DNA from: Ruminiclostridium herbifermentans
GTDB lineage: Bacteria > Bacillota > Clostridia > Acetivibrionales > DSM-1351
Reading direction: 5' to 3'
Length of the DNA: 64,000 nucleotides
Assembly: GCF_005473905.2 (NCBI RefSeq)
Contig: NZ_CP061336.1
Coordinates: 4,270,501 to 4,334,500 of the forward strand
The notes under the pieces: generated by a model
What the model saw: only the letters and a program-made list of their open reading frames with translations
Database searches by the model: none
What the model was told of the DNA's origin: nothing
Translations under genes and position numbers: made by a program
Shown: positions 2,547 to 20,841 of the stretch, in pieces
Position numbering within the stretch: the stretch's first letter is position 1
Layout of the letters: the number at the start of each line of letters is the position of its first letter

Positions 2547-3518
2547 CTACATTCTTCCAGTGCAGAACCTGTTCCATACAAGCCTAAGCAATGGCATTCC
2601 ACCATAGGAAAGAATCACTGCAAATCTATTTTTGCTTCTGCTTTTACCATCAAACAAAACAGTTTTTCTATATTTTTTTATATTATTAATTATTCTTCTT
2701 TTTTCCTCTGCAAACAAACTTTTCTCATTTGGTGTCTGCAAGAAAACTTGAAAATTGCTACTTATAAATTTTGAAATTGCTGCTTTCTTTATATTAGGGT
2801 ACTTAGCTGATATGAAATTCAGCATTTCCTCCGCTATATCAATTAATTCCATTCTTTTTATTGAAAATTGAGAAGTAGAAATGCTGTTCTCCCTTACTAT
2901 ATAATTGTATTTTTGCAAGCTGCCATAAACAATTTTAGTACATTTATCAAATACTAAATAAGTAGTTGCAAGATCTTCATAATACTTGCCCTTAGGATAT
3001 CTTATACTATTAAACAACTCTGTTTTATATAATTTTGCACATGCAGATACATCAAATAATTTTTGGTACAACATTTGCATAATAGCTTCTTGCTGGGTGT
3101 ATATGTATTGAATATCTTCAATACTGTCTTCTTTCTTATATTTATCTTCAAAGGTTTTATTTATATTACATATAGATACATCAGCAGAATATTTTTGAAT
3201 AAGCTTTACTAAATACTCCACATAATCAGCTTCTACGAAATCATCACTGTCTATAAAAGTAACATAATCCCCTGTTATTATATCTATAGCAACATTTCTA
3301 GCATCAGAAAGTCCGCCGTTTTCCTTATGAATGACTTTAATTCTGCTGTCTATTTCAGCATATTCATCACAAATAGTACCGCAATTATCTTCAGAGCCAT
3401 CATTCACTAAGATAATTTCCAGATTTTTATAAGTTTGATTAACAATACTATTTATGCATTTGTGTATGTATCTTTCAACATTAAATATTGGCACTATAAT
3501 ACTTATCAATGGTTCCAT
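2547..3518 (-). CDS. Glycosyltransferase family 2
   Basis: About 323 residues with a textbook GT-A fold N-terminus: PLISIIVPIFNVERYI, the nucleotide-binding VNDGSEDNC, the HKENGGLSDARN loop, and the catalytic DSDD at about residue 93. Such enzymes transfer a sugar from a UDP- or similar donor onto a growing lipid-linked chain. I place the start at the ATG at 3518 (MEPLIS), because the GTG at 3530 lies inside the AAGGTG ribosome site. The site overlaps the end of the preceding glycosyltransferase gene (stop at 3532), so the two are probably translationally coupled. The C-terminal third has no recognised domain. Confidence 0.88.
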   Translation of the reverse strand: MEPLISIIVPIFNVERYIHKCINSIVNQTYKNLEIILVNDGSEDNCGTICDEYAEIDSRIKVIHKENGGLSDARNVAIDIITGDYVTFIDSDDFVEADYVEYLVKLIQKYSADVSICNINKTFEDKYKKEDSIEDIQYIYTQQEAIMQMLYQKLFDVSACAKLYKTELFNSIRYPKGKYYEDLATTYLVFDKCTKIVYGSLQKYNYIVRENSISTSQFSIKRMELIDIAEEMLNFISAKYPNIKKAAISKFISSNFQVFLQTPNEKSLFAEEKRRIINNIKKYRKTVLFDGKSRSKNRFAVILSYGGMPLLRLVWNRFCTGRM

Positions 3519-7557: not shown

Positions 7558-8303
7558 ACCAGCCTCTCCCATCTCAAAATATTCCTATAAGCTAAATCAT
7601 CACTATTTCCACTTTCAATAATATTTTTAGCATTGTCATGGAAAAGTACGCTAGCCTCTTCCTTTCCTATCCAGTTTGAAACATTTTTAAATGCTTGAGC
7701 ATACCAATTGGCATAATCATCTGCACAATGTGCATTCGAGGCAACCACATCTACAAACTTCATCTGCAGCAGTTTTTTTGAAAATTCTTTTATTTTAGAA
7801 CCATATATTCCAACTATGCTTGCACAATCAAGCTGTATATAACATCCTGCCTTTATAAATGCCACAAAGTACTCAAACTTGTTCATAAATACCCTATTTC
7901 TTTCTATGTGGGCTATAACAGGTATGATTTTTTGTAATCTGAATTTGCAAACCATCTCAATACAATTCTGGGGTGTAGCATTATATGGAAATTCAAACAA
8001 TATAATTCCTGATTTACTTAAACTAAGTTTTCTGCGATTTTTAATCAATGATTGATTAACTGGGTTTGCAAAAACCTCGTACCCCATATTTATTTTTACA
8101 TTATAATCACTTGCCCGATATAGTAATTCCTGATAGTTTTCCTCTACACGTTCTGCATCATAAACTGATTCCTGATAATGGGGAGATGCAACAATCACCC
8201 CTATTCCAAGTCTCTCAGCCTCCTTAATCATATTAAGGGATTGTGTTATATTGGAAGGGCCATCATCTACCCCATATATAATATGACTATGTATATCTAT
8301 CAT
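7554..8303 (-). CDS. CpsB/CapC-type PHP-domain tyrosine-protein phosphatase
   Basis: About 249 residues. The N-terminus MIDIHSHIIYGVDDGP gives the metal-binding HxH of the PHP fold, with further histidines in IVASPHYQE, VIAHIERNR and NAHCADDY as in Wzb/CpsB/YwqE (PF19567). Members dephosphorylate the tyrosine tail of the BY-kinase that controls polymerisation. The partner kinase here is probably the protein at 31168-31902, over 20 kb away; normally the genes are adjacent, so the locus seems to have been split by insertions. The ATG at 8303 fits GGAAGG better than the upstream ATG at 8312. Confidence 0.88.
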   Translation of the reverse strand: MIDIHSHIIYGVDDGPSNITQSLNMIKEAERLGIGVIVASPHYQESVYDAERVEENYQELLYRASDYNVKINMGYEVFANPVNQSLIKNRRKLSLSKSGIILFEFPYNATPQNCIEMVCKFRLQKIIPVIAHIERNRVFMNKFEYFVAFIKAGCYIQLDCASIVGIYGSKIKEFSKKLLQMKFVDVVASNAHCADDYANWYAQAFKNVSNWIGKEEASVLFHDNAKNIIESGNSDDLAYRNILRWERLV

Positions 8304-8469
8304 AACTATCATATCCTTCCACTAAGTATTTCAATTTAAAATTATTTTAAAAATGTTACTTATATGTTTATTTATTTTAAAAGCAAAATAGTATATAGTT
8401 TAGAAATTTAGCTTAAACTAAATATTCAATACAGGATTAAATTTCTAAGAATATAATGTACTTAAATAA

Positions 8470-10197
8470 TTATGCACTCTCACTGCTTCCATGATATATT
8501 TCATCATACTCAGCATCATCAAGAATTTTTTCAATAAGTCTTCCATTCTCTAATTTCAAAACACGTGAGCATATCTTAAGAGCTGTTGGTCTATGGGTAA
8601 TTACAATACATGTCCTCGCTGGCTTAAGTTCATGTATGCTTTTTAAGACATGCATTTCTGAAGCTATATCCAAAGATGAAGTTGCCTCATCCAAAATAAG
8701 TATGGGTGATTTCCTTAGCAAGGCTCTTGCAATTGATATTCTCTGTGCTTGCCCCTCTGAAAGCCCAACTCCTCGTTCACCAACTTTAGACTTCATTCCG
8801 TCAGCCAATTCATCTATAAAATCCATAGCACATGCTGCCCTTGCAGCAGCTTGGATTTCTTCCATTGATGCCGCTGAATATCCTGCTCTGATATTTTCTT
8901 CTATTGTTCCGCTAAAAAGAGTATTTCCTTGAGGCACGTATGATATCCAATCTCTGGTTTCTGCCGAAGCCAAAAATTCTTTACCCTCTTTAGAAACAAA
9001 TGACACAATGCCTTCATCAGGTTTTACCAATGCTAATAGGAGCCTTATTAAAGTTGTTTTGCCTTCACCTGATGAACCAATGATACCCACAACTTCACCT
9101 GGTTTAATATTTACCGTCAAATTTTCTAGGATTGGCTTTTTATCCTCGTAAGAAAAATATATATCCTTAAAGCTTATACCTGTCACTGCTTCTGCAGGCA
9201 GTTCCTTTGAAAATTGTTCAACTGGCAAAGCTTCTAGTTCCATCAGTCTTTCTGATGAAGCAATGGCAGAAATTAATTGAGGTATAGTGCTTGCTAACCC
9301 AATAAAGGGTCCCTGTACCTGAGAAACAAGCTGTAAAAACGCAGTAAGTGTACCAAATGATGTAGTTCCCCTGCTCAGCTTTAACGTACCCCAGCAAAAT
9401 GCTAGTAAATACCCTATCCAATAGCCTAATCCCAAAGTAGTACTAGCCACTACACTGGTAACATTTTTCTTCATAACCCATTTTAGTCTAGTACCATGAA
9501 GGTCTGATATTATATCAATATTTCTTTTTTCAAGCTGAAAGGTTTTAACAATAAGCATATTCTCTATGGACTCTTGAATAAATGCTCTGTAAGCACTTTC
9601 TGATTCCTGAACCTTTACATTTAATTGCTTTAGCTTTCTCCCCCATATTCTGCTCAGCAAAACAGTAAAAGGGCCTAATATAAAGGCTAAAACTGCCAGC
9701 ATAGGCTCATAGTACAAAAGTGTTCCAAATGCCGCAGTCAGCTGAACACATAAATGGATAATGCTAGGTAATGTATTAACAACACCCGTTGTCACATTGC
9801 CCACATCACTAGTAAGTCTTGTCAGAACATCACCGCTGTGATACTTAGTTACATATAGCCATTCTGAAATGCTGATACGGGAAAAAATCCGCTTTCTGAT
9901 GCTATTTGACATCAATTCATATGTCTTTACTGATAAAACTGATGAAAAGGCTTTTATTCCTAAATTAGCAAATACAAGAGTTCCAAACATACTTGCGAAA
10001 ACTACTGCTTTACCAATAGTACCATCAACAGCACAATCAATAAGATTTTTTGAAAGGATTGCCACTGCCACACCTACTAGAGCAGTAGCAGCATCAAGTA
10101 TAATTATAAAGGCTATACTTTTTCTAAATCCTTTGGCATTGCCTAAAATCCATTTGATGTATTCATATGCCCTTTTAAACTCCATTGCGATTTTCAT
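8470..10197 (-). CDS. ABC transporter, fused permease and ATPase (peptide/lipid exporter type)
   Basis: A 575-residue half-transporter. Six membrane segments occupy about residues 25-310; the ATPase has Walker A GSSGEGKTT at ~374, signature LSEGQAQR at ~479 and Walker B ILILDEATSSLD at ~499. There is no C39 peptidase domain, so leader removal would need another enzyme. The start at 10197 is set by GGAGGA seven bases upstream; a longer frame to 10260 lacks a site and overlaps the peptidase gene. It is the last gene of the peptide module, behind the S26-like peptidase. By context it probably exports the modified peptide(s); homodimer assembly is the rule for this family. Confidence 0.88.
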   Translation of the reverse strand: MKIAMEFKRAYEYIKWILGNAKGFRKSIAFIIILDAATALVGVAVAILSKNLIDCAVDGTIGKAVVFASMFGTLVFANLGIKAFSSVLSVKTYELMSNSIRKRIFSRISISEWLYVTKYHSGDVLTRLTSDVGNVTTGVVNTLPSIIHLCVQLTAAFGTLLYYEPMLAVLAFILGPFTVLLSRIWGRKLKQLNVKVQESESAYRAFIQESIENMLIVKTFQLEKRNIDIISDLHGTRLKWVMKKNVTSVVASTTLGLGYWIGYLLAFCWGTLKLSRGTTSFGTLTAFLQLVSQVQGPFIGLASTIPQLISAIASSERLMELEALPVEQFSKELPAEAVTGISFKDIYFSYEDKKPILENLTVNIKPGEVVGIIGSSGEGKTTLIRLLLALVKPDEGIVSFVSKEGKEFLASAETRDWISYVPQGNTLFSGTIEENIRAGYSAASMEEIQAAARAACAMDFIDELADGMKSKVGERGVGLSEGQAQRISIARALLRKSPILILDEATSSLDIASEMHVLKSIHELKPARTCIVITHRPTALKICSRVLKLENGRLIEKILDDAEYDEIYHGSSESA

Positions 10198-10246
10198 ATT
10201 TCCTCCTGCAATGTTTTTTTGCATTGGTATTTCTTTTAGATAATTA

Positions 10247-10729
10247 CTATGCCTGAGCATGTATAATTACTTTTTTTGCTTTTGCAAAAAATCTTATTCC
10301 TTTAAGAAATAAATGCCTTAACGGAATTACATTAATCCATATTTTAACAAGTAATACCCAAAATTTGCTCTGACAGGTGAATTGGTGCTTATTCCTCTTT
10401 ACAGCCGTCACTACCGCAACAAGCTGTTCTGGTGCTAGAGGCCCTTCCACCCACTGTTGCGCATCACCTATAATATAAAAACTATCTTTTTCTGTTCTCA
10501 GAACTCTGTGTAATATGTATTCACCAGTAACCCTTTTAATTAAAACAATATCTCCCCTTTTAATTGTATCAATGCTTGCAGATGAAAGTTCAACAGAGTC
10601 CTCATCCTCACGCAGAAAAGGATACATGCTCATACCTGTCACAGTTATCCATGCTCTGCCTCCACCATCTAAAATTTCTTTAATTACAGGAAACATTTCG
10701 GCAGACTTTATCTTCTTTACTTCACACAT
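10247..10729 (-). CDS. S26-type signal-peptidase-like protein
   Basis: A 160-residue protein with TGMSMYPFLRE (nucleophile Ser34), RGDIVLIKR (residues 58-66), EYILHRVLR (His74) and FYIIGDAQ, which is the order of boxes in S26 peptidases. Ser plus His as in SipW-like enzymes looks better supported than a Ser/Lys dyad, although Lys65 is close to the usual Lys position. One hydrophobic stretch lies near the C-terminus (KFWVLLVKIWINVIPL). It overlaps the HprK-like gene by 13 bases. Because the exporter has no protease domain, this is the best candidate for leader cleavage; that is inference. Similar proteins accompany PqqD/lasso-type clusters in Firmicutes. Confidence 0.8.
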   Translation of the reverse strand: MCEVKKIKSAEMFPVIKEILDGGGRAWITVTGMSMYPFLREDEDSVELSSASIDTIKRGDIVLIKRVTGEYILHRVLRTEKDSFYIIGDAQQWVEGPLAPEQLVAVVTAVKRNKHQFTCQSKFWVLLVKIWINVIPLRHLFLKGIRFFAKAKKVIIHAQA

Positions 10730-11598
10730 TCATATACCAACTCCATTGCCTCTTTATCAGGTCTGCACTTCAAAAGATAAATAGGTATTCTGTTTATTAT
10801 ATTTTCAAGTACATCATATGCCTTCCTCATCAATTCTTCATCAAAATAAGGCAAAAAGCACCTTGGCATTACCTTCGGAAGTGCCTCAAAAATTTCAAGC
10901 CTTCTGATACTATTCTGTGGTGCTTGCTCTAGTACAACTATTGCCATTAAAGGCACTTCAATATTTTCGAATTTATCGGAAGAGCCGCTCCAAGGTGTAC
11001 CGCACAACATCAGCTCATTATTTACAAATCTAATTGCTGGAGTATCATCATTAACAACCTTTACCGCATCCCCTAAATATTTCTCCCAAAGCCCTACATG
11101 AGTCGACTTGCCAGTTCCTGAAGGAGCAGTAAACAGTAAGCCTTTACCATTCCAAGCTATGGATGATGCATGCATAACTATTCCGCCTTTATGTAAAAGA
11201 TTGTTTCTGAATATTATTCCCATAAGCATAAAGGTATGTACATCAGGCCATATTTTTATTAATTCAGATTTCTTATCATCTATATCGTGCCTTAAAAATC
11301 TTATATTTGCACTGCTCCACTCTTTATTTGTTTCTATGTGGGATAAAACTTGCTTTTCTTCCTTATCTGTACTATATATATGAAATCCACCGTTTTTATC
11401 TTCTTTTCTAAGCCACTTTATACTTTCTGAAATCAATAAGCGTCCTTCAGGTTTTGCAATATGCGAGCATTGAGCAATTTCAACTAAAATATCAGGCTTC
11501 TCACTCTCATTGCATTCAAAAGCCTTCATCCTATTAGTTAAATAATTGTTACACGTTTCAACATGTATATTTGTGCCTGCTACATTATAAGCAAACAT
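10717..11598 (-). CDS. HPr-kinase-like (HprK-fold) protein of a peptide-modification cluster
   Basis: About 293 residues. The C-terminal half has the HprK-type P-loop APSGTGKSTHVGLW (residues ~158-171), preceded by VMHASSIAWNGKG and followed by VVNDDTPAIR and a glycine/serine loop (GTPWSGSSDKF). The N-terminal half is not the DRTGG domain of true HprK. In paeninodin-type lasso clusters a related kinase phosphorylates the C-terminal serine of the precursor. Neither precursor here ends in serine, so the substrate is unclear. The start is the ATG at 11598 behind AGGAGTG; the ATG at 11613 overlaps that site. It is separated by ~470 bases from the precursor genes. Confidence 0.82.
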   Translation of the reverse strand: MFAYNVAGTNIHVETCNNYLTNRMKAFECNESEKPDILVEIAQCSHIAKPEGRLLISESIKWLRKEDKNGGFHIYSTDKEEKQVLSHIETNKEWSSANIRFLRHDIDDKKSELIKIWPDVHTFMLMGIIFRNNLLHKGGIVMHASSIAWNGKGLLFTAPSGTGKSTHVGLWEKYLGDAVKVVNDDTPAIRFVNNELMLCGTPWSGSSDKFENIEVPLMAIVVLEQAPQNSIRRLEIFEALPKVMPRCFLPYFDEELMRKAYDVLENIINRIPIYLLKCRPDKEAMELVYECVK

Positions 11599-12069
11599 TT
11601 TATCACTCCTCATGTTAATATCATTAAAACTTTGTTTGCTATAGCTATAAGCTTAGCAGGAATCTATTTTCACTTATGTTTCTCAAGACAAGCTTTCAGG
11701 CATTCTCTAAAACACCTTATAAAATATGCTTGAATTGATACACATTTAATAAATTAATGTGGTATATTTCAATCATAAGTAGTATTATATGGAGCAGCTA
11801 TAAAGTACAATACCCCACAGTATCACATACAGGTTAATATCCTGAACTATCGTAAGTAATATAACAGTATAGCAGCCCCATTATTAATACTAAGTTCCAT
11901 TACTATCTGTAAATAAAATGGTACCGATATACAACAAAATTCTCCAATCTCTTATAAATCAAACAAATGTAGTAATGAACTCATTTTGGGATTAAGCTTC
12001 GATTTAAGTTCAATCAAATTAAGTTTCAATCTAATTAAGTTTCAATTTAAGTTTGTAAAAAACTATTTA
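11599..12069. other. Gene-free gap downstream of the precursor peptides
   Basis: No convincing reading frame is present on either strand. It holds a tandem run of 15-16-bp AT-rich units (11990-12055) and a weak dyad CAGG-ATATTAA-CCTG near 11830-11845. No strong U-tract terminator is visible, so transcription may pass from the precursors into the kinase gene, or a new promoter may lie here; I could not fix one. Confidence 0.5.
11990..12055. repeat. Short tandem repeat, ~15-16 bp units
   Basis: About four diverged units of the type ATTAAGTTTCAATCTA follow one another (on the plus strand). They lie immediately downstream of the second precursor gene. The units form no hairpin and have no spacers, so this is not a CRISPR array. 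Confidence 0.6.
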
Positions 12070-12201
12070 CTAGATAACATTTGTAACCAACAATTCCCCA
12101 TTATCTCCAGGGCAAGAGCCTACTACTATACAACTGCCTGAAATTCTTTCTTCAACTCTCAAATTAATAACTTTCACTTCAGGTTTTACATATGTTCTCA
12201 T
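12070..12201 (-). CDS. Putative RiPP precursor peptide 2 (43 aa)
   Basis: The peptide is MRTYVKPEVKVINLRVEERISGS (leader-like part) followed by a C-terminal part with CIVVGSC and the tail PGDNGELLVTNVI. The ATG at 12201 has AGAGGTG nine bases upstream. The first ~23 residues align without gaps to precursor 1 (YVxP, then NLRVEER, then GS), while the part after residue 23 differs except for two cysteines. Conserved leader plus variable core is the hallmark of ribosomally made modified peptides. YxxP (residues 4-7) is the motif recognised by PqqD-like elements in lasso systems. A longer 64-residue frame exists but overlaps the upstream peptide gene and lacks a ribosome site. No database match can be claimed. 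Confidence 0.75.
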   Translation of the reverse strand: MRTYVKPEVKVINLRVEERISGSCIVVGSCPGDNGELLVTNVI

Positions 12202-12238
12202 TTTTTTCACCTCTCTTAGTATTGTACTTTTGTTCAAA

Positions 12239-12385
12239 TTAATTTGCTTGGCCTGCAAAAGCATAGTATGTTACGTCATTGTATACAACATCCTCGACGC
12301 AAGCACCATTACATATGCTTCCTGCCATCCTTTCCTCAACTCTTAAATTAACTAATTCCATCTTTGGAACAACGTATTTTTTCAC
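12239..12385 (-). CDS. Putative RiPP precursor peptide 1 (48 aa, GTG start)
   Basis: The frame starts at a GTG at 12385, behind a strong GGAGG site, and reads MKKYVVPKMELVNLRVEER, then MAGS and a C-terminal part with CNGAC followed by VEDVVYNDVTYYAF and the tail AGQAN. Residues 4-7 are YVVP and residues 13-19 NLRVEER, as in precursor 2 encoded 37 bases downstream. Two cysteines lie three residues apart, next to a stretch rich in Tyr, Asp and Asn, so thioether or C-C crosslinks are possible. The MAGS boundary resembles the MAG end of paeninodin-type leaders. It is translated just after the SPASM radical SAM gene is read only if transcription continues from it (that gene ends at 12485, 100 bases upstream). 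Confidence 0.75.
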   Translation of the reverse strand: MKKYVVPKMELVNLRVEERMAGSICNGACVEDVVYNDVTYYAFAGQAN

Positions 12386-12484
12386 TTCTTTTCACCTCCG
12401 GTAAATTAATAAATTTTTTTATTTTATCAGCAGCTATGCCGCTGTTCGACCCGTAGCACAACACAATTTTGTCAAAAATCATCC

Positions 12485-13627
12485 TCATGTAGCTATTTTC
12501 ACAGGTTCTGCTTGAACTCTCTGCTTCTTTAAGGATGCTCTATATCTTGCCGACTCGCAAAGATAGCTTGCAGGTTTTGTAAAGCAGCCTGTTTCTGTCA
12601 TCAGTCTTCCTGGACAAACCATACATTCACTTCGAACATCACATTCCATGCATTCTTGACATTTTGGAACCCTCATACAACCTTCTCTTACCTGCTGCCA
12701 TGCATTAACAAACCCTATTTCAAAGGGCTTAGCAACAGGTTCATTCAGCAGTCCACAAGGCAGTAATCTACCATCCCATGTTATCCAAAAACCCGTTTTA
12801 CCAGCTTGGCATTTAAATGCTGACTCCTCCAGCATTTTATTAACCTTGTCAGAGAATAAATTATTTTGTTCCATTTCATCCTGACCAATTTTTAATTCTA
12901 CATTTTTATCTTTCTGCCTCATTTTTTCACCATATTCAGTTATATATCTTTCATAATTCACAATATCAATTGAGGAAAGCCTGTTTCCCATCGGATCAGA
13001 GCCACAGCCCTCTCTTCTCGGTGAAATATAATTAACAATACCTAAGTTGTCACAATATGTATGTGCAATTTTATATATCTGCTCATAATCTCTATAATTG
13101 CCCTCTACTACTGTTGTTTTAATTTCAAGGTTTATATTTTGAGCCTTTAGATTATCTAATGCCTGTATGGTTCTATTAAAACCATCAGCACTGCCTGTGA
13201 TTCTCTCATATGTTTCAGGAGATGCACCATAAACTGTTACACTCAGTTTAGATGGCGGCATGGAACCAATCCATCGAGCCTTTTCTGGGGTTATTAAGCT
13301 TGCATTTGTGTAAATAGTCAAATTAAGCCCCATATTGCACAATGCTTCATAAATCTTCTGAAAATCAGGTCTTATGAAAACCTCTCCACCTGTTAAAATC
13401 AGATACAAAAGCCCCGCGTCCCGCGCTTGCTTTCCCATTTCAATCCACTCATCTGCCGAGCGTTCCATTGATATTGCATTTATATCATTTGCAGGACATG
13501 CCACGTAACACATCTTGCATTTAAAATTACATCGTGAGGTAAGTTCAAATGCGCCTGATATAGGTATCCCATTCTCTAGGGCATTTGCTGCCAACCTTTT
13601 ATTAAACTCTTTCCAATTGAGACTCAT
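12485..13627 (-). CDS. Radical SAM/SPASM peptide-modifying enzyme
   Basis: About 380 residues. The SAM-cluster motif CNFKCKMC (Cys33, Cys37, Cys40) is followed by the GGE box (LTGGEVFIRPDF) and, in the C-terminal third, a cysteine-rich SPASM region: FKCQAG, LLPCGLL, EGCMRVPKCQECMECDVRSEC, MVCPGR and GCFTKPASYLCE. SPASM proteins bind two extra iron-sulfur clusters and usually act on ribosomal peptides. The ATG at 13627 is behind GGAGGT; the ATG at 13639 overlaps that site. Two precursor-like genes begin 100 bases downstream and a PqqD-like gene lies upstream, so these peptides are the likely substrates. The bond formed cannot be deduced. Confidence 0.87.
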   Translation of the reverse strand: MSLNWKEFNKRLAANALENGIPISGAFELTSRCNFKCKMCYVACPANDINAISMERSADEWIEMGKQARDAGLLYLILTGGEVFIRPDFQKIYEALCNMGLNLTIYTNASLITPEKARWIGSMPPSKLSVTVYGASPETYERITGSADGFNRTIQALDNLKAQNINLEIKTTVVEGNYRDYEQIYKIAHTYCDNLGIVNYISPRREGCGSDPMGNRLSSIDIVNYERYITEYGEKMRQKDKNVELKIGQDEMEQNNLFSDKVNKMLEESAFKCQAGKTGFWITWDGRLLPCGLLNEPVAKPFEIGFVNAWQQVREGCMRVPKCQECMECDVRSECMVCPGRLMTETGCFTKPASYLCESARYRASLKKQRVQAEPVKIAT

Positions 13628-13656
13628 AATGACCTCCATTCTATTAAAACCGCATA

Positions 13657-13896
13657 AATAGTACTCCCGTGCAGTATATATCTATTGCTTGCTCACCAAA
13701 TTGATTCTGAAATAGTTACGATTCAGAACAAGTATTTCCGCCGACCGTATTACACTTAACATCCTGTCTCGATGTAATACTCACAGCACGTTACTTCCGC
13801 TGTGTCGGCTATAATACTTGTTCTTCATCTACTATTTCTAGCATCAATTTCTAACCGAGCGTCGCAACTAGATATATACTACACTCGCGTACTATT
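13657..13896. repeat. ~240-bp long palindromic element, copy 1
   Basis: The ends are AATAGTAC and GTACTATT. Arms then pair inward: CAGTATATATCTA with TAGATATATACTA, AAATTGATTCTGAAATAGT with a matching arm, GAACAAGTATT with AATACTTGTTC, GCCGAC with GTCGGC, and a core hairpin GTATTACA/TGTAATAC. The reverse complement recurs at 20559-20799, and a ~30-bp piece at 35966. No protein is encoded. It resembles a non-autonomous palindromic (MITE-like) element. It lies between the SPASM gene and the PqqD-like gene. Confidence 0.85.
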
Positions 13897-13951
13897 CTTT
13901 AAACAAGTCATCGATATACAGAAAACATTACTTTCAACAGAACCTTTGTAA

Positions 13952-14084
13952 CTCGAAAATGCACCATGCTTGAAGAAACTATTGCTATACCCACAAATAA
14001 CTGCTTGCAGCTTTTTGATATGCGAAGTGCAACATGTATGCACTAAATGCTAGCTTCACATTTTGCACAAGCTTTGTTTTCGAG
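13952..14084. repeat. Two-hairpin repeat nested inside another copy
   Basis: Outer arms CTCGAAAA (13952-13959) and TTTTCGAG (14077-14084) plus GCACCATG belong to the CTCGAAA-type hairpin B seen at 1.3 and 41.6 kb. Between them is a complete element of the TGCGAAG type: CTGCTTGCAG (14001-14010), then TGCGAAG...CTTCACA (14021-14060) with CATGTATGCAC in the loop. The outer copy is therefore split by the inner one. It ends four bases before the stop of the PqqD-like gene. Confidence 0.75.
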
Positions 14085-14088
14085 CTTG

Positions 14089-14355
14089 TCATTGCTCAAT
14101 AATACTGGTTTCCACCATGCTCTTTATAAACTTCTCCACATCACGTCTAGCAGTCTCTCTGTCTATGTCATACTCCGAAATCAGCACCTCAACCATTTCA
14201 TCTACAGATGAATTCTTTTCAAGTTCTCTCCACAACAGTGCTCCGCTCTCACTCAGAGTCATAATCCCATTAAACTCAACAACTCTTGCCCCTAAAGGAA
14301 CTACTACTGACTGCCCTGCTATTTCTCTAAGCATAAATCCACTTTTAATCTGCAT
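14089..14355 (-). CDS. PqqD-like peptide carrier / RiPP recognition element
   Basis: An 88-residue protein, the usual size of free-standing PqqD (PF05402). It opens with MQIKSGFMLREIAGQSVVVPLG, contains the family strand FNGIMTLSESGALLWREL and ends with a helical part DIDRETARRDVEKFIKSMVE. Such proteins have a winged-helix fold whose third helix and beta strands hold the leader peptide for the modifying enzyme. In lasso systems they read a YxxP motif, which both small peptides downstream carry. The start at 14355 follows GGAGGA; an upstream ATG at 14373 does not. Its distance from the SPASM gene (460 bases) is filled with repeats that seem to have inserted within the operon. Confidence 0.9.
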   Translation of the reverse strand: MQIKSGFMLREIAGQSVVVPLGARVVEFNGIMTLSESGALLWRELEKNSSVDEMVEVLISEYDIDRETARRDVEKFIKSMVETSIIEQ

Positions 14356-14447
14356 AATAATAATCCTCCACAAAATATATGATTTTTTAATAAATTAATG
14401 ACTATTTCTTCCTCCATCTAAACCCGTTAATAAAAGCCTTAAACCTT

Positions 14448-15692
14448 TTATCTCAACCCTAACCATTCCAAGAGATTATTCCTCTCTTTTGCCATTATAT
14501 TTAGTTCTTTATCATTAAAAATGGCTTTCTTATCATTAAAGTTAAAATCTTTTCTTTTAAATCCATATACAATTCTATGAATCCATGCAAAAGGTAAGAA
14601 TATTGGACTCTTTCGAACATATAGATACTTTTTTCTCTTAGCCAAAATATTTCGATTAGGAAAGAGAATTCGTCTAGCCCTAGAAAGTTTATTTTTGTAA
14701 TTCAACTCTTCTGCATTATTTGAATTGGTAATAAGTACATTTGCAGAAGTTCTATGAATATCGTTATTGCCTAAATTTCCCCCAGCAAGAATATCATTTA
14801 TTAGCCTATCTAATTTTTCTTCGTCTGCGTTTCTAAATATCAATTCTGCAGGAATTTCCATATTAAATAACCGATTACAAACCATAAATATTGCACATAT
14901 AAAATTGTCAATGCCATATTTTATTGACCTTTCTTGTACAATATTCCAATTAATTTCATTTCTTTTTCTTTCAACCACCATAACCAAATCACATAATTGC
15001 CTAAGTCCTATTCCTCCATAAGATATATGTGAAGCCATATGAATACATATATGTAAAATCTGCATTTCCCATGACAAAATATTTGCTTTTATAGAACCTA
15101 AATTTATGGATGTAGTATTCTCCCATATTTCATCATGAAAGCTTTCTTTGTTCTGCATAAAGTCATAATCTATTAACAATCTGTGCAATTCAATTGATAT
15201 AGCGTTTTTCTTGAAAAACTCAATATGCTTAGTTTTCTTGTCTTTGGATGAAACATATCCTAGATTTTCTAATACTTCAGTAGCTTTTTCTATATCCTCT
15301 TCGTGTACTAGAATATCTGCATCTCCCATAGTTCTCAGTTCTGGCTTTGGATAGCACTTATTTATTGCCATTCCTTTAAGCACAATGGTTTCAATTCCCA
15401 GAGCATCTAGTGTTTCAATAACCTCTCCAAGCCATACTTCACCGCAAATCATCTGAATTCCACAGGACATTACAGATATATTCCATACAGCCATCAACTT
15501 TTCATCAAGCCCTACTTTTGAATCTATGTCTTTTATAATTGGAAATACCAAGGTATGAACTTGATGGGCGCGGGCTTCTTTATAGATTTCATCCCAATTA
15601 ACAGCAGCTGCCTTACATTTATCTATTTGAAATTCTCTATTGTAAATTGCAGCACAAAGTATCTCAATTAATAGTGTGTCTTTTGCCGTCAT
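14448..15692 (-). CDS. Uncharacterised nucleotidyltransferase family protein (NTP_transf_5 type)
   Basis: A 414-residue protein with VLKGMAINKCYPKPELRTMGDADILV (given here in part: KGMAINKCYP at ~106-115; Arg120; GDADILV at 123-129), the nucleotidyltransferase box of PF14907. Pol-beta-fold enzymes use such paired aspartates to bind the metal. Members are frequent companions in lasso-peptide clusters and beside PqqD/HprK genes, where their reaction is poorly known. It overlaps the upstream glycosyltransferase by 29 bases and lies 92 bases before the PqqD-like gene. A GGAGG site supports the ATG at 15692. Confidence 0.82.
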   Translation of the reverse strand: MTAKDTLLIEILCAAIYNREFQIDKCKAAAVNWDEIYKEARAHQVHTLVFPIIKDIDSKVGLDEKLMAVWNISVMSCGIQMICGEVWLGEVIETLDALGIETIVLKGMAINKCYPKPELRTMGDADILVHEEDIEKATEVLENLGYVSSKDKKTKHIEFFKKNAISIELHRLLIDYDFMQNKESFHDEIWENTTSINLGSIKANILSWEMQILHICIHMASHISYGGIGLRQLCDLVMVVERKRNEINWNIVQERSIKYGIDNFICAIFMVCNRLFNMEIPAELIFRNADEEKLDRLINDILAGGNLGNNDIHRTSANVLITNSNNAEELNYKNKLSRARRILFPNRNILAKRKKYLYVRKSPIFLPFAWIHRIVYGFKRKDFNFNDKKAIFNDKELNIMAKERNNLLEWLGLR

Positions 15693-16836
15693 TTCCCAAC
15701 CTCCACTTATCTGTTATTTTTTTCTTTGTGCCCATAATTTCCATATATATGTGTTTTGTATTAATAGAAATCTGATCCCAATTGTACTTATTAAGGATGT
15801 ATTGAGCAGCAAGGTCTCTTACTTTTAAAACCTTGCTTTTATTTTCAAGTAACATGTTGAGTTTTTTCTCCAGGTCATCAACATTTGCTTTCTTAAAGCT
15901 GTAGCCGATGCTTCCAATAACATCTGTGTTTTCTGCTATATCACTAACTAGGCAGCAATTTCCGTAACTCATTGCTTCTAGCAGGCTTATGGGTAAGCCC
16001 TCTATATCAGAAGGAAGAACATAAAAATAAGCGTTGCTATATAGCTCCGCTAATTCAAGTTCCTTTACAAATCCAGTGAAAATAATATTCTTATTTTCTT
16101 TTGCCATTTTCCTTAATTCACTTTCATATCCCTCGCTATGACTTGCTCCTCCTGCTATTACCAACTTTTTTTCTGTCTTAATTCTATTAAAGGCATCAAT
16201 TAGGTAATGTATTCCCTTTTCAGGTACAAGCCTTGCCAAAAATAATATGTAGTCGTCTTTTCCTAAATTATATTTTTCCTTTATTATTAAGGGCTTCACT
16301 AAGTCAGGTCTTTCAACTCCGTTAGGAATATAGCTGGTTTCCAGATTGTATTTCTCCCTATAGTATTTAACTAGGTTTTTAGAAACATTAATTGTTTTAT
16401 GTGAAAATTTTGCTGTAGCATACTCTCCAAACTTCAAATATTTCGATGCAAATTTACCCCATTTACCGCGCTGCCAATCAAGTCCATGCACGGTACAAAC
16501 AACCTTTTTACCAAATAACCTTGGAATAAAAGCCATTGTGGAAGGGCCTAATGCATGATAATGAAATATATCACAGTTGGAAAAGAGTGCTCTAATTGTG
16601 GAAGTAAAAGTATGCGTTATAGAATCCAAATGTTTTGATTTAATATAGGGTGTATATTTAACAGTAATTCCTTGATACTTATTGTCAGAGAACTCCTTAT
16701 CACAGTAGCCCCTTCTGCAGTACACTTCCACTTCATAGCCTAGATAAACAAGCCTTTTTGAGATTTCTTCAACATGGATTTCTATTCCACCAGCTCTAGA
16801 CGGAATACCTTTCTGCCCTATCATCGCTATTTTCAT
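15664..16836 (-). CDS. Glycosyltransferase family 4
   Basis: A 390-residue GT-B enzyme. It opens MKIAMIGQKGIPSRAGGIEIHVEEI, a pattern common in clostridial and cyanobacterial rhamnosyl-/mannosyltransferase-like proteins; the donor domain has YILFLARLVPEKGIHYLI and LPSDIEGLPISLLEAMSYG. It overlaps the upstream radical SAM gene by 41 bases and the downstream nucleotidyltransferase by 29, so the three are strongly coupled in translation. It could glycosylate a peptide product or a polysaccharide; context allows both, and I cannot choose. Confidence 0.85.
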   Translation of the reverse strand: MKIAMIGQKGIPSRAGGIEIHVEEISKRLVYLGYEVEVYCRRGYCDKEFSDNKYQGITVKYTPYIKSKHLDSITHTFTSTIRALFSNCDIFHYHALGPSTMAFIPRLFGKKVVCTVHGLDWQRGKWGKFASKYLKFGEYATAKFSHKTINVSKNLVKYYREKYNLETSYIPNGVERPDLVKPLIIKEKYNLGKDDYILFLARLVPEKGIHYLIDAFNRIKTEKKLVIAGGASHSEGYESELRKMAKENKNIIFTGFVKELELAELYSNAYFYVLPSDIEGLPISLLEAMSYGNCCLVSDIAENTDVIGSIGYSFKKANVDDLEKKLNMLLENKSKVLKVRDLAAQYILNKYNWDQISINTKHIYMEIMGTKKKITDKWRLGNDGKRHTIN

Positions 16837-17845
16837 ATTTTGTATACTCCTTCATGTCTATGAATTTATTTTCACATAGGCTGTAGCCTCCCTTTAGTTT
16901 ATGCTTTATAACCCAAAATGCTGGAATCCATATTCTTTGTTTCATTGCAGGTGCTGCACTGCCTATCATCCAACAATTCTTTTTACATGACTTTACTTTT
17001 TTTCTAACCTCGTCAGCCTTTTTGGAATTCCATATTTCGTCCCAACTTTTCTCATTTAAATTTCCCATAGACATTTTAGTAGTACTGCCATTGCAAGGCA
17101 AAACATGTCCAAATGGATCAACAAAAAAACCATTGCTGCCCATTTCACATGGCAAGTAGCGTTTATTGCCGTATAAATAGTTAATTAATCCATGATTGAA
17201 ATATGCTCTGAACCATTTCTTTGGAGATTTAGACTTGAGAAGCTGATTTATCAATTCTTCAAATGCCCTTGAGACTTTAAGCTTATCATTAATTTTATTA
17301 TTTGTTTTTCTGAAATAGAAGGAATTATGCAGTGTAGCAGTGGCAAATTCCATATTTAATTCATCAGCCAGTTTGTAAAGAGGAATTAAATCATCAGCAT
17401 TCATTTCTTGAACGGTACAGCCGAAACCCACATCCTTATGGCCGGCTGCTACCAGCTTTCTCAATGTAGTGTAGCCTCTATTGAAGCCATCAGGAATTCC
17501 TCTTATTTTATCATTTGCCTCCTGCAGCCCCTCAATGCTAATCCTTATACCAACCTGCGGAAATTCTTCGCACAAAGCTAATATCCTATCTGTGAAGTAA
17601 CCGTTCGTAGAGATTACAATTCGGTTTGTCTTTTTGTAAAGTTCTCTGACAATCTCGTTTATATCTTTACGGATAAAAGGCTCACCACCAGTTATATTAG
17701 TGAATGCCATCTTAGGAAGCTTTTTTATTAAGTCCAAAGACATCTCTTCATCGGGCTTGCTGGGATCTCTAAAACAATCACACATATTACATCTAGCATT
17801 ACAACGGTATGTAATAATAATAGAGCCATATAATGTTCTTCTCAT
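16796..17845 (-). CDS. Radical SAM protein with short C-terminal cysteine region
   Basis: About 349 residues. The motif CNARCNMC (Cys15, Cys19, Cys22) starts only 15 residues from the N-terminus, followed by TNITGGEPFIRKDI. The C-terminal part has LPCEMGSNGFFVDPFGHVLPC and KSCKKNCWM, a SPASM/twitch-like auxiliary-cluster region shorter than in the other enzyme. It belongs to a different subfamily from the protein at 12485-13627. It is the first gene of the coupled trio with a glycosyltransferase and a nucleotidyltransferase. Substrate unknown; it may act on the same peptides or on a sugar precursor. Confidence 0.85.
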   Translation of the reverse strand: MRRTLYGSIIITYRCNARCNMCDCFRDPSKPDEEMSLDLIKKLPKMAFTNITGGEPFIRKDINEIVRELYKKTNRIVISTNGYFTDRILALCEEFPQVGIRISIEGLQEANDKIRGIPDGFNRGYTTLRKLVAAGHKDVGFGCTVQEMNADDLIPLYKLADELNMEFATATLHNSFYFRKTNNKINDKLKVSRAFEELINQLLKSKSPKKWFRAYFNHGLINYLYGNKRYLPCEMGSNGFFVDPFGHVLPCNGSTTKMSMGNLNEKSWDEIWNSKKADEVRKKVKSCKKNCWMIGSAAPAMKQRIWIPAFWVIKHKLKGGYSLCENKFIDMKEYTKYENSDDRAERYSV

Positions 17846-17922: not shown

Positions 17923-20091
17923 TTATTTGCTAGAGTCTAATTTAATTGGTTTGTACATGAGTCTCGCGCCATCATGCCAATAAGTATGATCAATATCAAA
18001 CCATGCTCTCAGCATAAATAAACCTGCTCTATCGGCTATACCTGTTCCTAAATCCCATGCACCCTTCCACCTGATATCTCTTGGTTTTGATGAATTTATA
18101 CAATACCAGGAGTCTGCAAAGCTGTTGTCTTTGTTAGCTCCGTTTGAAATTTCAACTGGAAATGCTATTGACGGATATCTTTCATCATATCCAAGATTTT
18201 TTATCATTTGGTTAACATAACTTTCTCTATTCTCATTTTCCATTTGCTCAGGCACAGTATAGTTTAAAGGCAAATAATCCTCTGAACCTGCACTCACATA
18301 CTTTGTCATATCGTAACAAACATATGGAACAAAACTTTTCACAAACACTCCATCTATTATGTTCCAAATATTCCCCCATGGGTTTTCAACGAACCTATAT
18401 CTCACACTTGTATGGCCATTTCCATTAAGAGCACCTAGTGCATAGCCGCTTGGTGACGCCATTGTATCACACATACCGCTTGCCATTGGTGTATTGTAAA
18501 TATATGTAGTTGAAGCATTGACATCATAAGGCTCACCCGAAAAGTAAATTGCTATATTTTTATCATCATAGCTTTCAATAGCTGTTATTGTTCTATGATC
18601 CATATAGTAATTACCCTTTTCTGAAATTGAGCAGGACTGACCAACCTTAAAGCTAGCATTTTTAGCTAATATAATCCTATTGCTGTTCTTTTCAGAAATT
18701 GCAGCATACTTAATAAAGGGATACTGCATTTTTTGTAATCCCATACCTATTGTTTTGCTGCTGTTTTTATTAGCAAACTCAACAAGATATAAATGCTGCA
18801 GTGCAAATATGCATCTTATATCAAGCACTCCATATCTCATGCTTCCGTTATTTCTTGCATAGTCACGGTAGGTGGTTAGATTTAAATTGGTTGTAGGATA
18901 TTTTCCTGACCAACTCACCAGCTTGTTATCCTCTGTCACAAAACCATCATATGCTGCAATATATATCTTGTCTAAAACTTGATCTCCCTCTAGAAATGCC
19001 GGCTCCACTTCAAAGCCTTCCTTCTGAGTTTTTGAAATATACAAATATTCATGGGTCGCATCTTGATATCTTTTTACGTACCATTTTGGCAGTTCAACAA
19101 ATACATTTCCATTGGAGCCATCATATGCAAATCCCTTTTCACCCTGATATGTAATTTTTTCTTTAGAATCAATATTACACAGCTTTATTTCAGACCATGG
19201 ATAAATATAATCAAAGTCATTGGCAACTGGCAGATTGCCTTCCACTGCTGCTGCGGTAAGCCCTACAGAAGCTCCCAATCGCTCACATTTCTCATTTAAC
19301 TCTGTAAGACTCCACCTAACACCATATACGCCATCCTCTTTAGTCGCTACTTTCTTGGGGTAATAAATTTTTACATTTCCAATATCATCACCCGATACTG
19401 TAAAAGTGGTTAATCCATTATAACTCTTTAGTGTTCCAATACTTTTATAGTTCTTTTTAGTGTCTAATATATACCAATTTAGGCTAGAGTCCTGAGCTAA
19501 TCCTATGGCATCCTTTATTACAGGAATACTTATTTTACTTTCTGTATACTTTTCATAGGATGTAGCAATATCTCCATATTCAATTTGAACATTACCGCTT
19601 GCTTCAACCCCAAAGAAAACTCTTGCCCATGCTACTCCATATGGAATTTTTACTGTTGGTGAATTTTTAATGCTGTAATTCTTACTATCAGCGCTTTTAA
19701 ACTGCCATACATTTCTATTAACGCCACTTCCGCTAATTGTAAGTGTCTGACCAGGATATACCCGTATCCACTTAGTAGTTTTATATTTTTTACTGTTTGT
19801 ACTTTTAAGTTCTTCTTTAGTATCACTTCGAATATAGCCATTTTGATAGCTGCCGTTATATATGTTTTTGCCACAGGACGTTATTGTAACAGGCTTTTTG
19901 TTATTTCTTATTTCAAGCCTGCAATTCCCGCTCTTAGAAATATTTGTTTGAAACACTCTGCAATTATTGTTCAATGTTACGCAAGCGGAATTTTCAATAA
20001 GTAATTCCTCTTTAGCAATTATGCTAGAACCCGAACATAAATTGCACAAAATAAAAACTGTAAGACATATGCATATTATTTTTCTTCTCAT
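17923..20091 (-). CDS. Large secreted protein of unknown function
   Basis: A 722-residue protein with a signal peptide (MRRKIICICLTVFILCNLCSG, cleavage near residue 20-30). No catalytic family is recognised. The first third is beta-rich with a possible carbohydrate-binding or jelly-roll module (GQTLTISGSG, ARVFFGVEASGNVQIEYG). The middle and C-terminal parts (GVRWSLTELNEKCERLGA, DYIYPWSEIKLCNI, MRYGVLDIRCIFALQHLYLVEFA) resemble modules I associate with clostridial phage-tail-like or cell-surface proteins, but I hold this loosely. The ATG at 20091 follows GGAGGTCAAC. Its start region is duplicated about 250 bases upstream, inside a repeat-rich gap. It sits between the sugar gene at 20842 and the radical SAM gene. 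Confidence 0.7.
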   Translation of the reverse strand: MRRKIICICLTVFILCNLCSGSSIIAKEELLIENSACVTLNNNCRVFQTNISKSGNCRLEIRNNKKPVTITSCGKNIYNGSYQNGYIRSDTKEELKSTNSKKYKTTKWIRVYPGQTLTISGSGVNRNVWQFKSADSKNYSIKNSPTVKIPYGVAWARVFFGVEASGNVQIEYGDIATSYEKYTESKISIPVIKDAIGLAQDSSLNWYILDTKKNYKSIGTLKSYNGLTTFTVSGDDIGNVKIYYPKKVATKEDGVYGVRWSLTELNEKCERLGASVGLTAAAVEGNLPVANDFDYIYPWSEIKLCNIDSKEKITYQGEKGFAYDGSNGNVFVELPKWYVKRYQDATHEYLYISKTQKEGFEVEPAFLEGDQVLDKIYIAAYDGFVTEDNKLVSWSGKYPTTNLNLTTYRDYARNNGSMRYGVLDIRCIFALQHLYLVEFANKNSSKTIGMGLQKMQYPFIKYAAISEKNSNRIILAKNASFKVGQSCSISEKGNYYMDHRTITAIESYDDKNIAIYFSGEPYDVNASTTYIYNTPMASGMCDTMASPSGYALGALNGNGHTSVRYRFVENPWGNIWNIIDGVFVKSFVPYVCYDMTKYVSAGSEDYLPLNYTVPEQMENENRESYVNQMIKNLGYDERYPSIAFPVEISNGANKDNSFADSWYCINSSKPRDIRWKGAWDLGTGIADRAGLFMLRAWFDIDHTYWHDGARLMYKPIKLDSSK

Positions 20092-20149
20092 GTTGACCTC
20101 CATTCTAAACATATTATCAACAGCCACTTTCACTCTTTGTGGCTGAACG

Positions 20150-20191
20150 ATGCGAAGTGCATCATGTATGCACTATATGCTAGCTTCGCAT
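20150..20191. repeat. Two-hairpin repeat, TGCGAAG type, copy at 20.15 kb
   Basis: Hairpin arms ATGCGAAG and CTTCGCAT enclose a loop with CATGTATGCAC. A separate small hairpin AGCCAC/GTGGCT (20122-20144) precedes it in place of the CTGCTTGCAG hairpin found in other copies. It lies ~60 bases upstream of the secreted-protein start. Confidence 0.75.
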
Positions 20192-20275
20192 TAGCCTCCC
20201 CTTCCGCTAGTACCACCAGCTATGCACAATATTATTTGAAAAGTGTATAGTAATTACTTGATTACTCAATACCAC

Positions 20276-20341
20276 AAAAAGCTGCTTGCAGCTTTTTCTA
20301 TGCGAAGAGCACCATGTATGCACTAAATGCTGGCTTCGCAT
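20276..20341. repeat. Two-hairpin repeat, TGCGAAG type, copy at 20.3 kb
   Basis: Hairpin A is perfect (AAAAAGCTGC, loop TT, GCAGCTTTTT; 20276-20297). Hairpin B has arms ATGCGAAG (20300-20307) and CTTCGCAT (20334-20341), with GCACCATGTATGCAC in the loop. Directly after it comes a ~60-bp duplicate of the ribosome-site/start region of the downstream secreted-protein gene (CTCATGTTGACCTCCATT at 20347-20364 and 20087-20104). Confidence 0.85.
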
Positions 20342-20443
20342 TTTTCTCATGTTGACCTCCATTTTAAACATATTATCAAAAGCCATTTTTAGTCGTTCTG
20401 GCTGAAAATACACAAAGTTCTTTCAACATATTGCTACATTCAC

Positions 20444-20510
20444 AAAAAACTGCTTGCAGTTTTTTGCGATGCGAAGAGCACCATGTATGCACAAATGCTA
20501 ACTTCGCATT
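20444..20510. repeat. Two-hairpin repeat, TGCGAAG type, copy at 20.45 kb
   Basis: Hairpin A reads AAAAAACTGC, loop TT, GCAGTTTTTT. Compared with the 20.28-kb copy, both arms have changed together (G-C to A-T), so pairing is preserved. Hairpin B arms are GATGCGAAG and CTTCGCATT, with the conserved CACCATGTATGCAC loop. Confidence 0.85.
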
Positions 20511-20558
20511 TTTAAGCTGCAAAACAACACTAGCTTGTTACCGATATCTTAATGCAAG

Positions 20559-20799
20559 AATAGTACGCGAGTGTAGTATATATCTAGTTGCGACGCTCGG
20601 TTAGATATTGATGCTAGAAATAGTAGGTGAAGAGCAAGTAGTGTAGTCGACACTGCTACAGGATGTAGCTGTGAGTATTACATCGAGACAGGATGCCTTT
20701 GTGTAATACGGTCGGCGGAAGTGCTTGTTCTTCACCGTAATTATTTCAGCATCAATTTCGTGAGCAAGCAATAGATATATACTGCACGGGAGTACTATT
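20559..20799. repeat. ~240-bp long palindromic element, copy 2 (inverted relative to copy 1)
   Basis: It runs from AATAGTAC to GTACTATT and is the reverse complement of 13657-13896 with scattered differences. Ends, inner arms and the GTATTACA/TGTAATAC core are all kept. The pair brackets the secreted protein, radical SAM, glycosyltransferase, nucleotidyltransferase and PqqD-like genes (~6.7 kb). The whole gap 20092-20841 (about 750 bases) holds only repeats and no gene. Confidence 0.85.
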
Positions 20800-20841
20800 C
20801 AAGCAGTTTATTTGAAGGTGTGATACTTATTTTCGCAATTC

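Follow-up and report, generated by a model that had tools for sequence, protein, structure and literature searches.

What kind of peptide is made by a gene set that combines the helper proteins of lasso peptide clusters with radical S-adenosylmethionine (SAM) enzymes? This question is raised by a module at positions 8470-17845 of a 64,000-nucleotide stretch of the Ruminiclostridium herbifermentans genome (contig NZ_CP061336.1; the whole stretch is called the window below). We conclude that the module is a real, recurring pathway of the ribosomally synthesized and post-translationally modified peptide (RiPP) type and not a lasso cluster. The reading that we prefer, and consider probable, is that it represents a third, radical-SAM-equipped branch of a toolkit consisting of a RiPP recognition element (RRE), an HprK-like kinase, an NTP transferase, a type I signal peptidase (SpI) and an MsbA-like exporter, which is used by the linear polyphosphorylated peptides (LPPs) and in part by paeninodin-type lasso peptides.

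The genes are transcribed from the minus strand in the order radical SAM/SPASM protein, GT4 glycosyltransferase, NTP_transf_5 nucleotidyltransferase, PqqD-like RRE, radical SAM/SPASM-like maturase, precursor A, precursor B, HprK-like kinase, S26-type peptidase and ATP-binding cassette (ABC) exporter. All genes named in an earlier sequence-only reading were found on that strand, although its inventory had omitted the GT4 gene (15664-16836), which follows the first radical SAM gene and precedes the NTP_transf_5 gene. The exporter (8470-10260), described there as lacking a peptidase domain, indeed has no C39 match. The same reading had noted the absence of the lasso cyclase and of the transglutaminase-like lasso protease B2; neither had a match within the window, and the B2 family (PF13471) had none in the whole host genome of 4.8 Mb on one contig (0 of 1 genome). 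A lasso cluster with its cyclase just outside the module was therefore rejected, no cyclase being found beside the module in the window and no B2 gene in the genome.

The maturase (12485-13639, 384 residues), which we regard as the core enzyme, was present in 6 of 11 genomes of the family (single protein query, E ≤ 1e-30), in 11 of 58 genomes of the order (E ≤ 1e-40) and in at least 18 of 391 genomes of the class, the last figure being a lower bound because at most five candidates were scored per genome; the host genome is included in each count. By this protein the nearest named relative is Ruminiclostridium sufflavum (locus L009), with 75% identity. Taking the 26 loci whose maturase match reached E ≤ 1e-100, the window included, we counted partners on the same strand within 4 kb (5 kb for the ABC exporter, 8 kb for NTP_transf_5). 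An HprK-like kinase was found in 25 loci, a PqqD-like protein in 24, an S26 peptidase in 21, a precursor with a YxxP leader in 21, an ABC exporter in 16 and NTP_transf_5 in 12; exopolysaccharide (EPS) markers (CpsB, sugar transferase or GT4) lay within 8 kb in 9. Where at least 5 kb was available on both sides (14 loci), the counts were HprK 14, PqqD 13, S26 12, ABC 12, precursor 11, NTP_transf_5 10 and EPS marker 7, and PqqD, HprK, S26 and ABC occurred together in 11 of the 14. Thus, the co-occurrence in other Clostridia that the sequence-only reading had proposed as a check was observed, with a lasso cyclase and B2 in only one of the 26 loci (L114), as a separate set; this count comes from a search of all annotated loci, the partner table having lacked B2 labels for the first 31 regions. 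Twelve loci were left out of the 26, one at a contig end (L070) and eleven with weaker matches (L071, L072, L080-L083, L085-L087, L118, L129); L081 and L087 showed no partner and the remaining ten showed at least one. A contig search supplied 20 loci, of which L009-L015 were annotated and the other 13 were weak (22-30% identity).

The two small genes downstream of the maturase behave as precursor genes. Precursor A (12239-12385) encodes 48 residues from a GTG start preceded by GGAGG, and precursor B (12070-12201) encodes 43 residues from an ATG preceded by GAGAGGTG. In both, residues 1-19 form the leader (YVVP...LRVEER in A, YVKP...LRVEER in B), and the predicted cores comprise 29 residues with CNGAC in A and 24 residues with CIVVGSC in B. 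Pfam and NCBIfam hold no curated family for either peptide. The sequence-only reading had made its case depend on conservation of these peptides, and relatives of both occupy the same positions in R. sufflavum (L009), in R. hungatei (L011) and in a metagenome-assembled genome (MAG; L010). The ratio of nonsynonymous to synonymous substitution rates (dN/dS) against L009 was 0.17 for A and 0.10 for B, and for the two precursor pairs of L010 and L011 it was 0.06 and 0.07, so that four close pairs span 0.06-0.17; against the more distant L011, B gave 0.44 and A was undefined because dS was saturated. Both precursor genes are under purifying selection.

The leader motif was found in 25 of 1009 same-strand open reading frames (ORFs) near a maturase, against 3 of the 8834 remaining ORFs and none of 9843 shuffled sequences; it was derived from the same peptides, so that the contrast weighs more than the counts themselves, and all three matches among the other ORFs came from loci carrying a maturase. 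We aligned 39 precursors on YxxP and numbered positions from its proline (P). Glu occupied P+11 in 95% and Ala P+14 in 72%, and the residue at P+13 was I, L, V, F or M in 39 of 39; these figures are partly favoured by the search patterns used for the motif and for the later set, which select, strictly or by preference, for that Glu and for a hydrophobic P+13. Arg was found at P+12 in 54%, and about half of the 39 carried Ser or Thr at P+16. At least two core cysteines were present in 32 of 39, with the first at P+17 or P+18 in 22 of those 32. The 39 sequences came from the window pair or a loose pattern (27), a second loose pattern (7), a third pattern (4) and ORF listings (1, L012_A); a 112-residue candidate in L013 and a near-copy of L079 in L084 were excluded, whereas the L064 and L065 precursors, near-copies of each other, were both counted.

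Other precursor-like peptides were also seen. One type, with the leader LRxEEGIA and often a Gly-rich core, occurs in L009 (9494-9643), L011 (9419-9628), L064 (9385-9600), L065 (9636-9851) and L069 (2061-2237), lying between the NTP_transf_5 and PqqD genes in the first four. In loci of the genus Ruminiclostridium it precedes the RRE gene; it is absent from the corresponding gap of 92 bases in the window. Locus L112 encodes a precursor with an LRPEER leader and a core without Cys (8226-8402) and an extra HprK of the radical-SAM clade (8455-9351), on the strand opposite the neighbouring maturase. In a MAG titled Atopobiaceae (L012), a family outside Bacillota, three relatives of the maturase were seen together with three precursors whose xAEER leader is similar (3191-3418, 10979-11215, 13675-13872), although binning errors are possible there.

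The maturase matched the Pfam radical SAM family at 8.9e-20, and Pfam reported no SPASM domain in it. Its cysteines follow the pattern CxxxCxxC, then C-x12-G-x4-C...CxxCx5CxxC...C, which all or nearly all of 12 aligned relatives keep (C276 and C329 at ≥90%, the other pattern cysteines invariant). A seven-Cys arrangement of this kind is the canonical SPASM layout, and as judged from the sequence the maturase has that layout with one spacing altered. In profile comparisons with solved structures SkfB ranked first (E 1.8e-30), followed by cytosylglucuronate decarboxylase, PqqE and SuiB, with MoaA and viperin lower; the AlphaFold model (pLDDT 85) placed SuiB, SkfB, PqqE and anSMEcpe ahead of MoaA and viperin. 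No NCBIfam model reached its cut-off for the window protein, the 12 relatives matched the same NCBIfam models, and PHROGs gave general radical SAM matches only.

The helper proteins were assigned by several kinds of evidence. The RRE (14089-14355, 88 residues) matched Pfam PqqD at 9.8e-17 and, below cut-off, lasso_PqqD_Bac as its top NCBIfam model; in profile searches of the PDB the lasso RREs TbiB1 and TfuB1 led, followed by entries for a lasso PqqD-family chaperone and a PqqD family protein. The kinase (10717-11613, 298 residues) had no Pfam kinase match and a weak profile match to HprK 1jb1 (E 9e-4), and its AlphaFold model (pLDDT 93.8) gave phosphoenolpyruvate carboxykinases (PEPCKs) as its top matches, ahead of HPr kinases, most TM-scores lying at 0.3-0.5. 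PEPCK and HPr kinase share one fold. The S26 peptidase (10247-10729), a SipW/SEC11-like enzyme and the predicted leader peptidase, was recognized by Pfam as Peptidase_S24 (4.3e-6), has Ser33, His73 and Asp88 invariant in 15 of 15 aligned sequences and gave weak profile matches to SEC11C (E 1.5e-3) and to bacterial signal peptidases. The exporter is a Pfam ABC exporter with MsbA_lipidA as its best NCBIfam model, below cut-off. The NTP_transf_5 nucleotidyltransferase (14448-15692; Pfam 1.2e-55) is a frequent but inconstant partner.

Among described systems the LPP family (PMC13381572; Popov et al., Nat Commun 2026) comes nearest; there, according to the main text, SpI, a discrete RRE, an HprK-like kinase, an NTP transferase and an MsbA-like exporter are encoded in capsule loci. 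The LPP leader reads YxxPxVLxHQxIxFETxxS, Ser3 is phosphorylated several times and cleavage occurs after T-1 in an RRE-dependent manner; in the numbering used there (Y-16, P-13), T-1 corresponds to P+12 and S3 to P+15. All five accessory proteins, the capsule setting, a YxxP leader, Glu at position -2 and one to three precursors are common to both systems as far as that text describes them. A predicted SipW/SpI-like peptidase with Ser, His and Asp is encoded in the window, and Pfam, profiles and fold identify the RRE, kinase, NTP transferase and exporter. In contrast to the published LPP clusters, the window adds a radical SAM/SPASM-like enzyme beside the RRE, and its leader, YVxPx6LRxEERxA, agrees with that of LPPs only at Y, P and Glu at P+11. 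The terms "radical SAM", "rSAM" and "SPASM" were not found in the main text of PMC13381572, supplements aside. Since LPPs show the same set without a lasso cyclase, an accessory set lacking lasso enzymes is no longer new in itself; the sequence-only proposal that the set serves a different, possibly undescribed radical SAM class stands insofar as the set recurs in the company of a radical SAM enzyme instead of lasso enzymes. No description of a radical SAM enzyme with this kinase/SpI set was found in the literature searched, with most subscription papers and supplements out of range.

Other known systems share smaller parts of the plan. Paeninodin-type lasso clusters of Bacillota have an HprK-like kinase, an NTP transferase, a discrete PqqD-like RRE and an exporter, whereas the window lacks cyclase and B2, has YxxP in place of the lasso WxxP and adds an S26 peptidase and the radical SAM enzyme. 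In the available portions of the respective texts, a kinase and a nucleotidyltransferase are described in lasso clusters of rumen bacteria, together with PsmN-linked glycosylation (PMC7533575), and about 300 RREs found by the discrete lasso model of RRE-Finder adjoin radical SAM enzymes (PMC7470986). SkfB, AlbA and SuiB are likewise radical SAM/SPASM enzymes acting on RiPP precursors, with SkfB (by profile) and SuiB (by fold) the nearest solved structures, but in the window the RRE is a separate protein and a kinase, an NTP transferase and a SipW-like peptidase are added. For SynChlorMet (NCBIfam TIGR04248-TIGR04251), ScmE was the nearest model for the maturase, ScmC for the kinase, and ScmD was one of seven PqqD-type models matching the RRE, yet these matches fell far under cut-off (82/400, 31/125 and 18/100 bits, respectively). 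Membership was rejected because the cut-offs of ScmC, ScmD, ScmE and ScmF were not reached; the term SynChlorMet was not found in the full-text literature searched.

The helper proteins of the module were compared in trees with those of LPP and lasso sets. We found nine LPP-type sets (RRE, HprK and S26 without their own maturase), two beside radical-SAM modules (L113, L114) and seven (L137-L143) among 198 genomes belonging to a different order of the phylum; LPP-type precursors were recognized in 7 of the 9, and 7 of 7 had FET and Ser at P+15. Lasso comparison loci came from a search of 398 genomes of the phylum with PF13471, used only for this purpose, in which 37 genomes had a match and 15 exceeded the cut-off. 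In the S26 tree, the radical-SAM type (24) and the LPP type (9) fell on opposite sides of one branch (support 99/98). In the HprK tree, one clade held 27 of 28 radical-SAM rows (98/97) and a second held 9 of 9 LPP rows (100/97), with the 12 lasso rows in two groups. The tree of the RRE, a short protein, was ambiguous, with 27 of 28 radical-SAM rows (93/84) and 10 of 10 lasso rows (82/77) grouped and the LPP rows split into 7 and 2. All three trees carry a program warning on long branches, and they omitted L071, L072, L077, L080-L083, L087, L115-L118 and L129, mostly loci of odd context, an omission that favours a clean split, as well as rows under length or E-value limits; the HprK of L112 (8455), which does not lie beside a same-strand maturase, was labelled radical-SAM type by default. 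The nearest RRE was within 38 bases of the maturase in the relatives used for the trees, except in L075, where HprK lies in between.

The same separation was observed within single loci. L114 holds a lasso set (cyclase, WQRP precursor, HprK, RRE and B2), a radical-SAM set (RRE, maturase, HprK, S26 and ABC) and an LPP set that has an RRE, HprK, S26 and FET precursor to itself, and thus three precursor types. In L113 a radical-SAM set and an LPP set adjoin, each with its own RRE and HprK; both loci have one ABC exporter apiece. As judged from the sequences, the peptidase and kinase of the radical-SAM type are lineages apart from those of LPPs, even within one locus. The module thus fails two LPP features, leader motif and lineage, yet it seems to follow the LPP plan, extended by a radical SAM enzyme. 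HprK-PqqD-S26 sets were also seen in L115 (precursor at 8653-8787) and L117 (9353-9472), with the precursor leader YE[KE]PVIEI..F..EDIIT and no adjacent maturase; these sets are perhaps a fourth branch.

From these assignments we propose an order of events. The discrete RRE would bind the YVxP of the leader, as suggested by family knowledge and homology, and the SPASM-type enzyme would then modify the core, most likely by joining Cys thiols to carbons as in sactionine or ranthionine formation; that the modification is a thioether has, in our estimate, slightly less than an even chance of being correct. By analogy with LPPs and pseudomycoidin, the kinase may phosphorylate a Ser or Thr close to the N-terminal end of the core; in loci that have it, NTP_transf_5 may attach a further group to the phosphate. 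The Ser-His-Asp peptidase would remove the leader, probably after P+12 (...EER / MAGS, ...EER / ISGS), cleavage after the Arg at this position being predicted because Glu at P+11 has the same spacing as in LPPs. Finally, the MsbA-like pump may export the peptide, perhaps for action at the capsule.

How well does this proposal fare against other readings? The module could be no more than an LPP cluster next to a radical SAM gene, in which case the product would be a linear polyphosphorylated peptide and the enzyme would only tailor it or act on another substrate. The five accessory genes and the capsule setting are those of LPP clusters as set out in the main text of PMC13381572, Glu at P+11 is shared, and FEN/FES variants (L112-L114, L074) resemble the LPP FET. 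However, 24 of 26 loci have an RRE within 4 kb of the maturase, mostly as its direct neighbour, the leader motif differs and does not keep the LPP Ser at P+15, and peptidase and kinase belong to separate lineages, also inside one locus. We consider this explanation improbable. A sactipeptide or ranthipeptide of known kind with unusual accessories, in which the maturase makes thioethers and the kinase and NTP transferase serve as decoration, is compatible with the third-branch reading, and we think it rather unlikely. The Cys pattern, the SkfB profile match and two Cys in each window core agree with a SPASM radical SAM enzyme acting on a Cys-bearing core, and W/Y/LxxP recognition is reported across lasso, PQQ and sactipeptide systems (RRE StsC) in the available part of PMC12710340. 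Against this, no NCBIfam maturase model reached cut-off, the RRE is a separate, lasso-like protein, the kinase accompanies the maturase as regularly as the RRE does (25 and 24 of 26 loci) and some precursors lack the Cys pair. Also compatible with a third branch is a role inside the producer, in assembly or attachment of capsule or EPS instead of action against other bacteria. The EPS markers near 9 of 26 loci and the position of the window core between such genes argue for it, but none of the three markers lay within 8 kb in 17 of 26, though 12 of 26 end early on one side, and LPPs have no described role either; we hold such a role to be doubtful.

The third-branch reading itself meets several difficulties. 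The product, its reaction, its phosphorylation and its role are all predictions drawn from genes and models. Because two Cys also occur in 3 of 7 LPP precursors, which have no radical SAM gene, and 7 of 39 radical-SAM-type precursors lack the pair, the Cys pair is weakened as proof of a thioether and may not be the target of the maturase. Ser at P+15, found in 7 of 7 LPP precursors, occurs in 2 of 39 radical-SAM-type ones. The structural matches of the maturase include enzymes that do not act on peptides (cytosylglucuronate decarboxylase, second by profile, MoaA and viperin), and no precursor was recognized in 5 of 26 loci. In the RRE tree a branch separated the radical-SAM group from the rest in 31% of bootstraps and the LPP group in 2%, and L086 fell outside the radical-SAM group in both the RRE and HprK trees. 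Finally, the kinase profile is not exclusive: it matched 9 of 398 genomes of the phylum, with a maturase in the locus of only five (G000, G091, G440, G524, G606); the loci of the other four (G146, G441, G458, G799) had no maturase match at E ≤ 1e-100, and hence the kinase family serves other sets too.

Even so, the comparison of loci suggests a chassis role for the RRE/kinase/NTP-transferase/SpI toolkit, which has been combined with different core chemistries: threading into a lasso, phosphorylation by itself, or radical SAM chemistry. We give an even chance to the fuller proposal of a distinct RiPP class whose members would be crosslinked by a radical SAM enzyme, would carry (poly)phosphate or a phospho-conjugate close to the start of the core and would be freed from the leader by a SipW-like signal peptidase to which the RRE presents them. 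In this proposal the class would stand beside the lasso and LPP branches as one of three or more parallel lines that can share a locus, each with its own RRE and kinase, and that act at the cell surface. To our knowledge a peptide both phosphorylated and crosslinked by a radical SAM enzyme has not yet been described, and the combination would be new if true. With three sets in L114, each having its own RRE and kinase, the published two-way problem of leader discrimination becomes a three-way problem within one locus.

The module sits inside an EPS/capsule-type locus, with genes of this type on both sides of the core genes by Pfam annotation. Genes for CpsB, a sugar transferase and a 490-residue protein lie 3′ of the exporter, the last with a Wzz-type chain-length look by eye and without Pfam support. 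The sequence-only reading had counted two radical SAM proteins in the module, and both genes are present, but only the maturase belongs to the core. The second (16796-17845; Pfam 4.9e-16 for radical SAM, 2.7e-12 for SPASM) was found in 8 of 58 order genomes, of which two (G004, G019) had no core maturase match at E ≤ 1e-40, and outside the genus its profile matched the fetched loci only weakly (L071 5e-20, L080 2e-20). The GT4 gene, a Pfam assignment, directly adjoins NTP_transf_5 only in loci of the same genus. Both genes were rejected as core components, the radical SAM gene because it occurs without the maturase in G004 and G019, and they are probably EPS genes. A 736-residue protein in the EPS region (17923-20133) had no Pfam match and a PHROGs tail-protein match (phrog_5302, E 8.8e-49).

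The long intergenic gaps gave no Rfam match at the gathering threshold. The gap at 13660-14075 between the RRE and maturase genes is occupied by a dispersed repeat (13660-13948, no strand assigned) with inverted arms at 13657-13684 and 13869-13896 and dozens of partial copies of 78-89% identity throughout the genome; it is an insertion between the two genes and not a component of the system. A second cluster of repeat pieces lies upstream in the window, at about 20150-20800.

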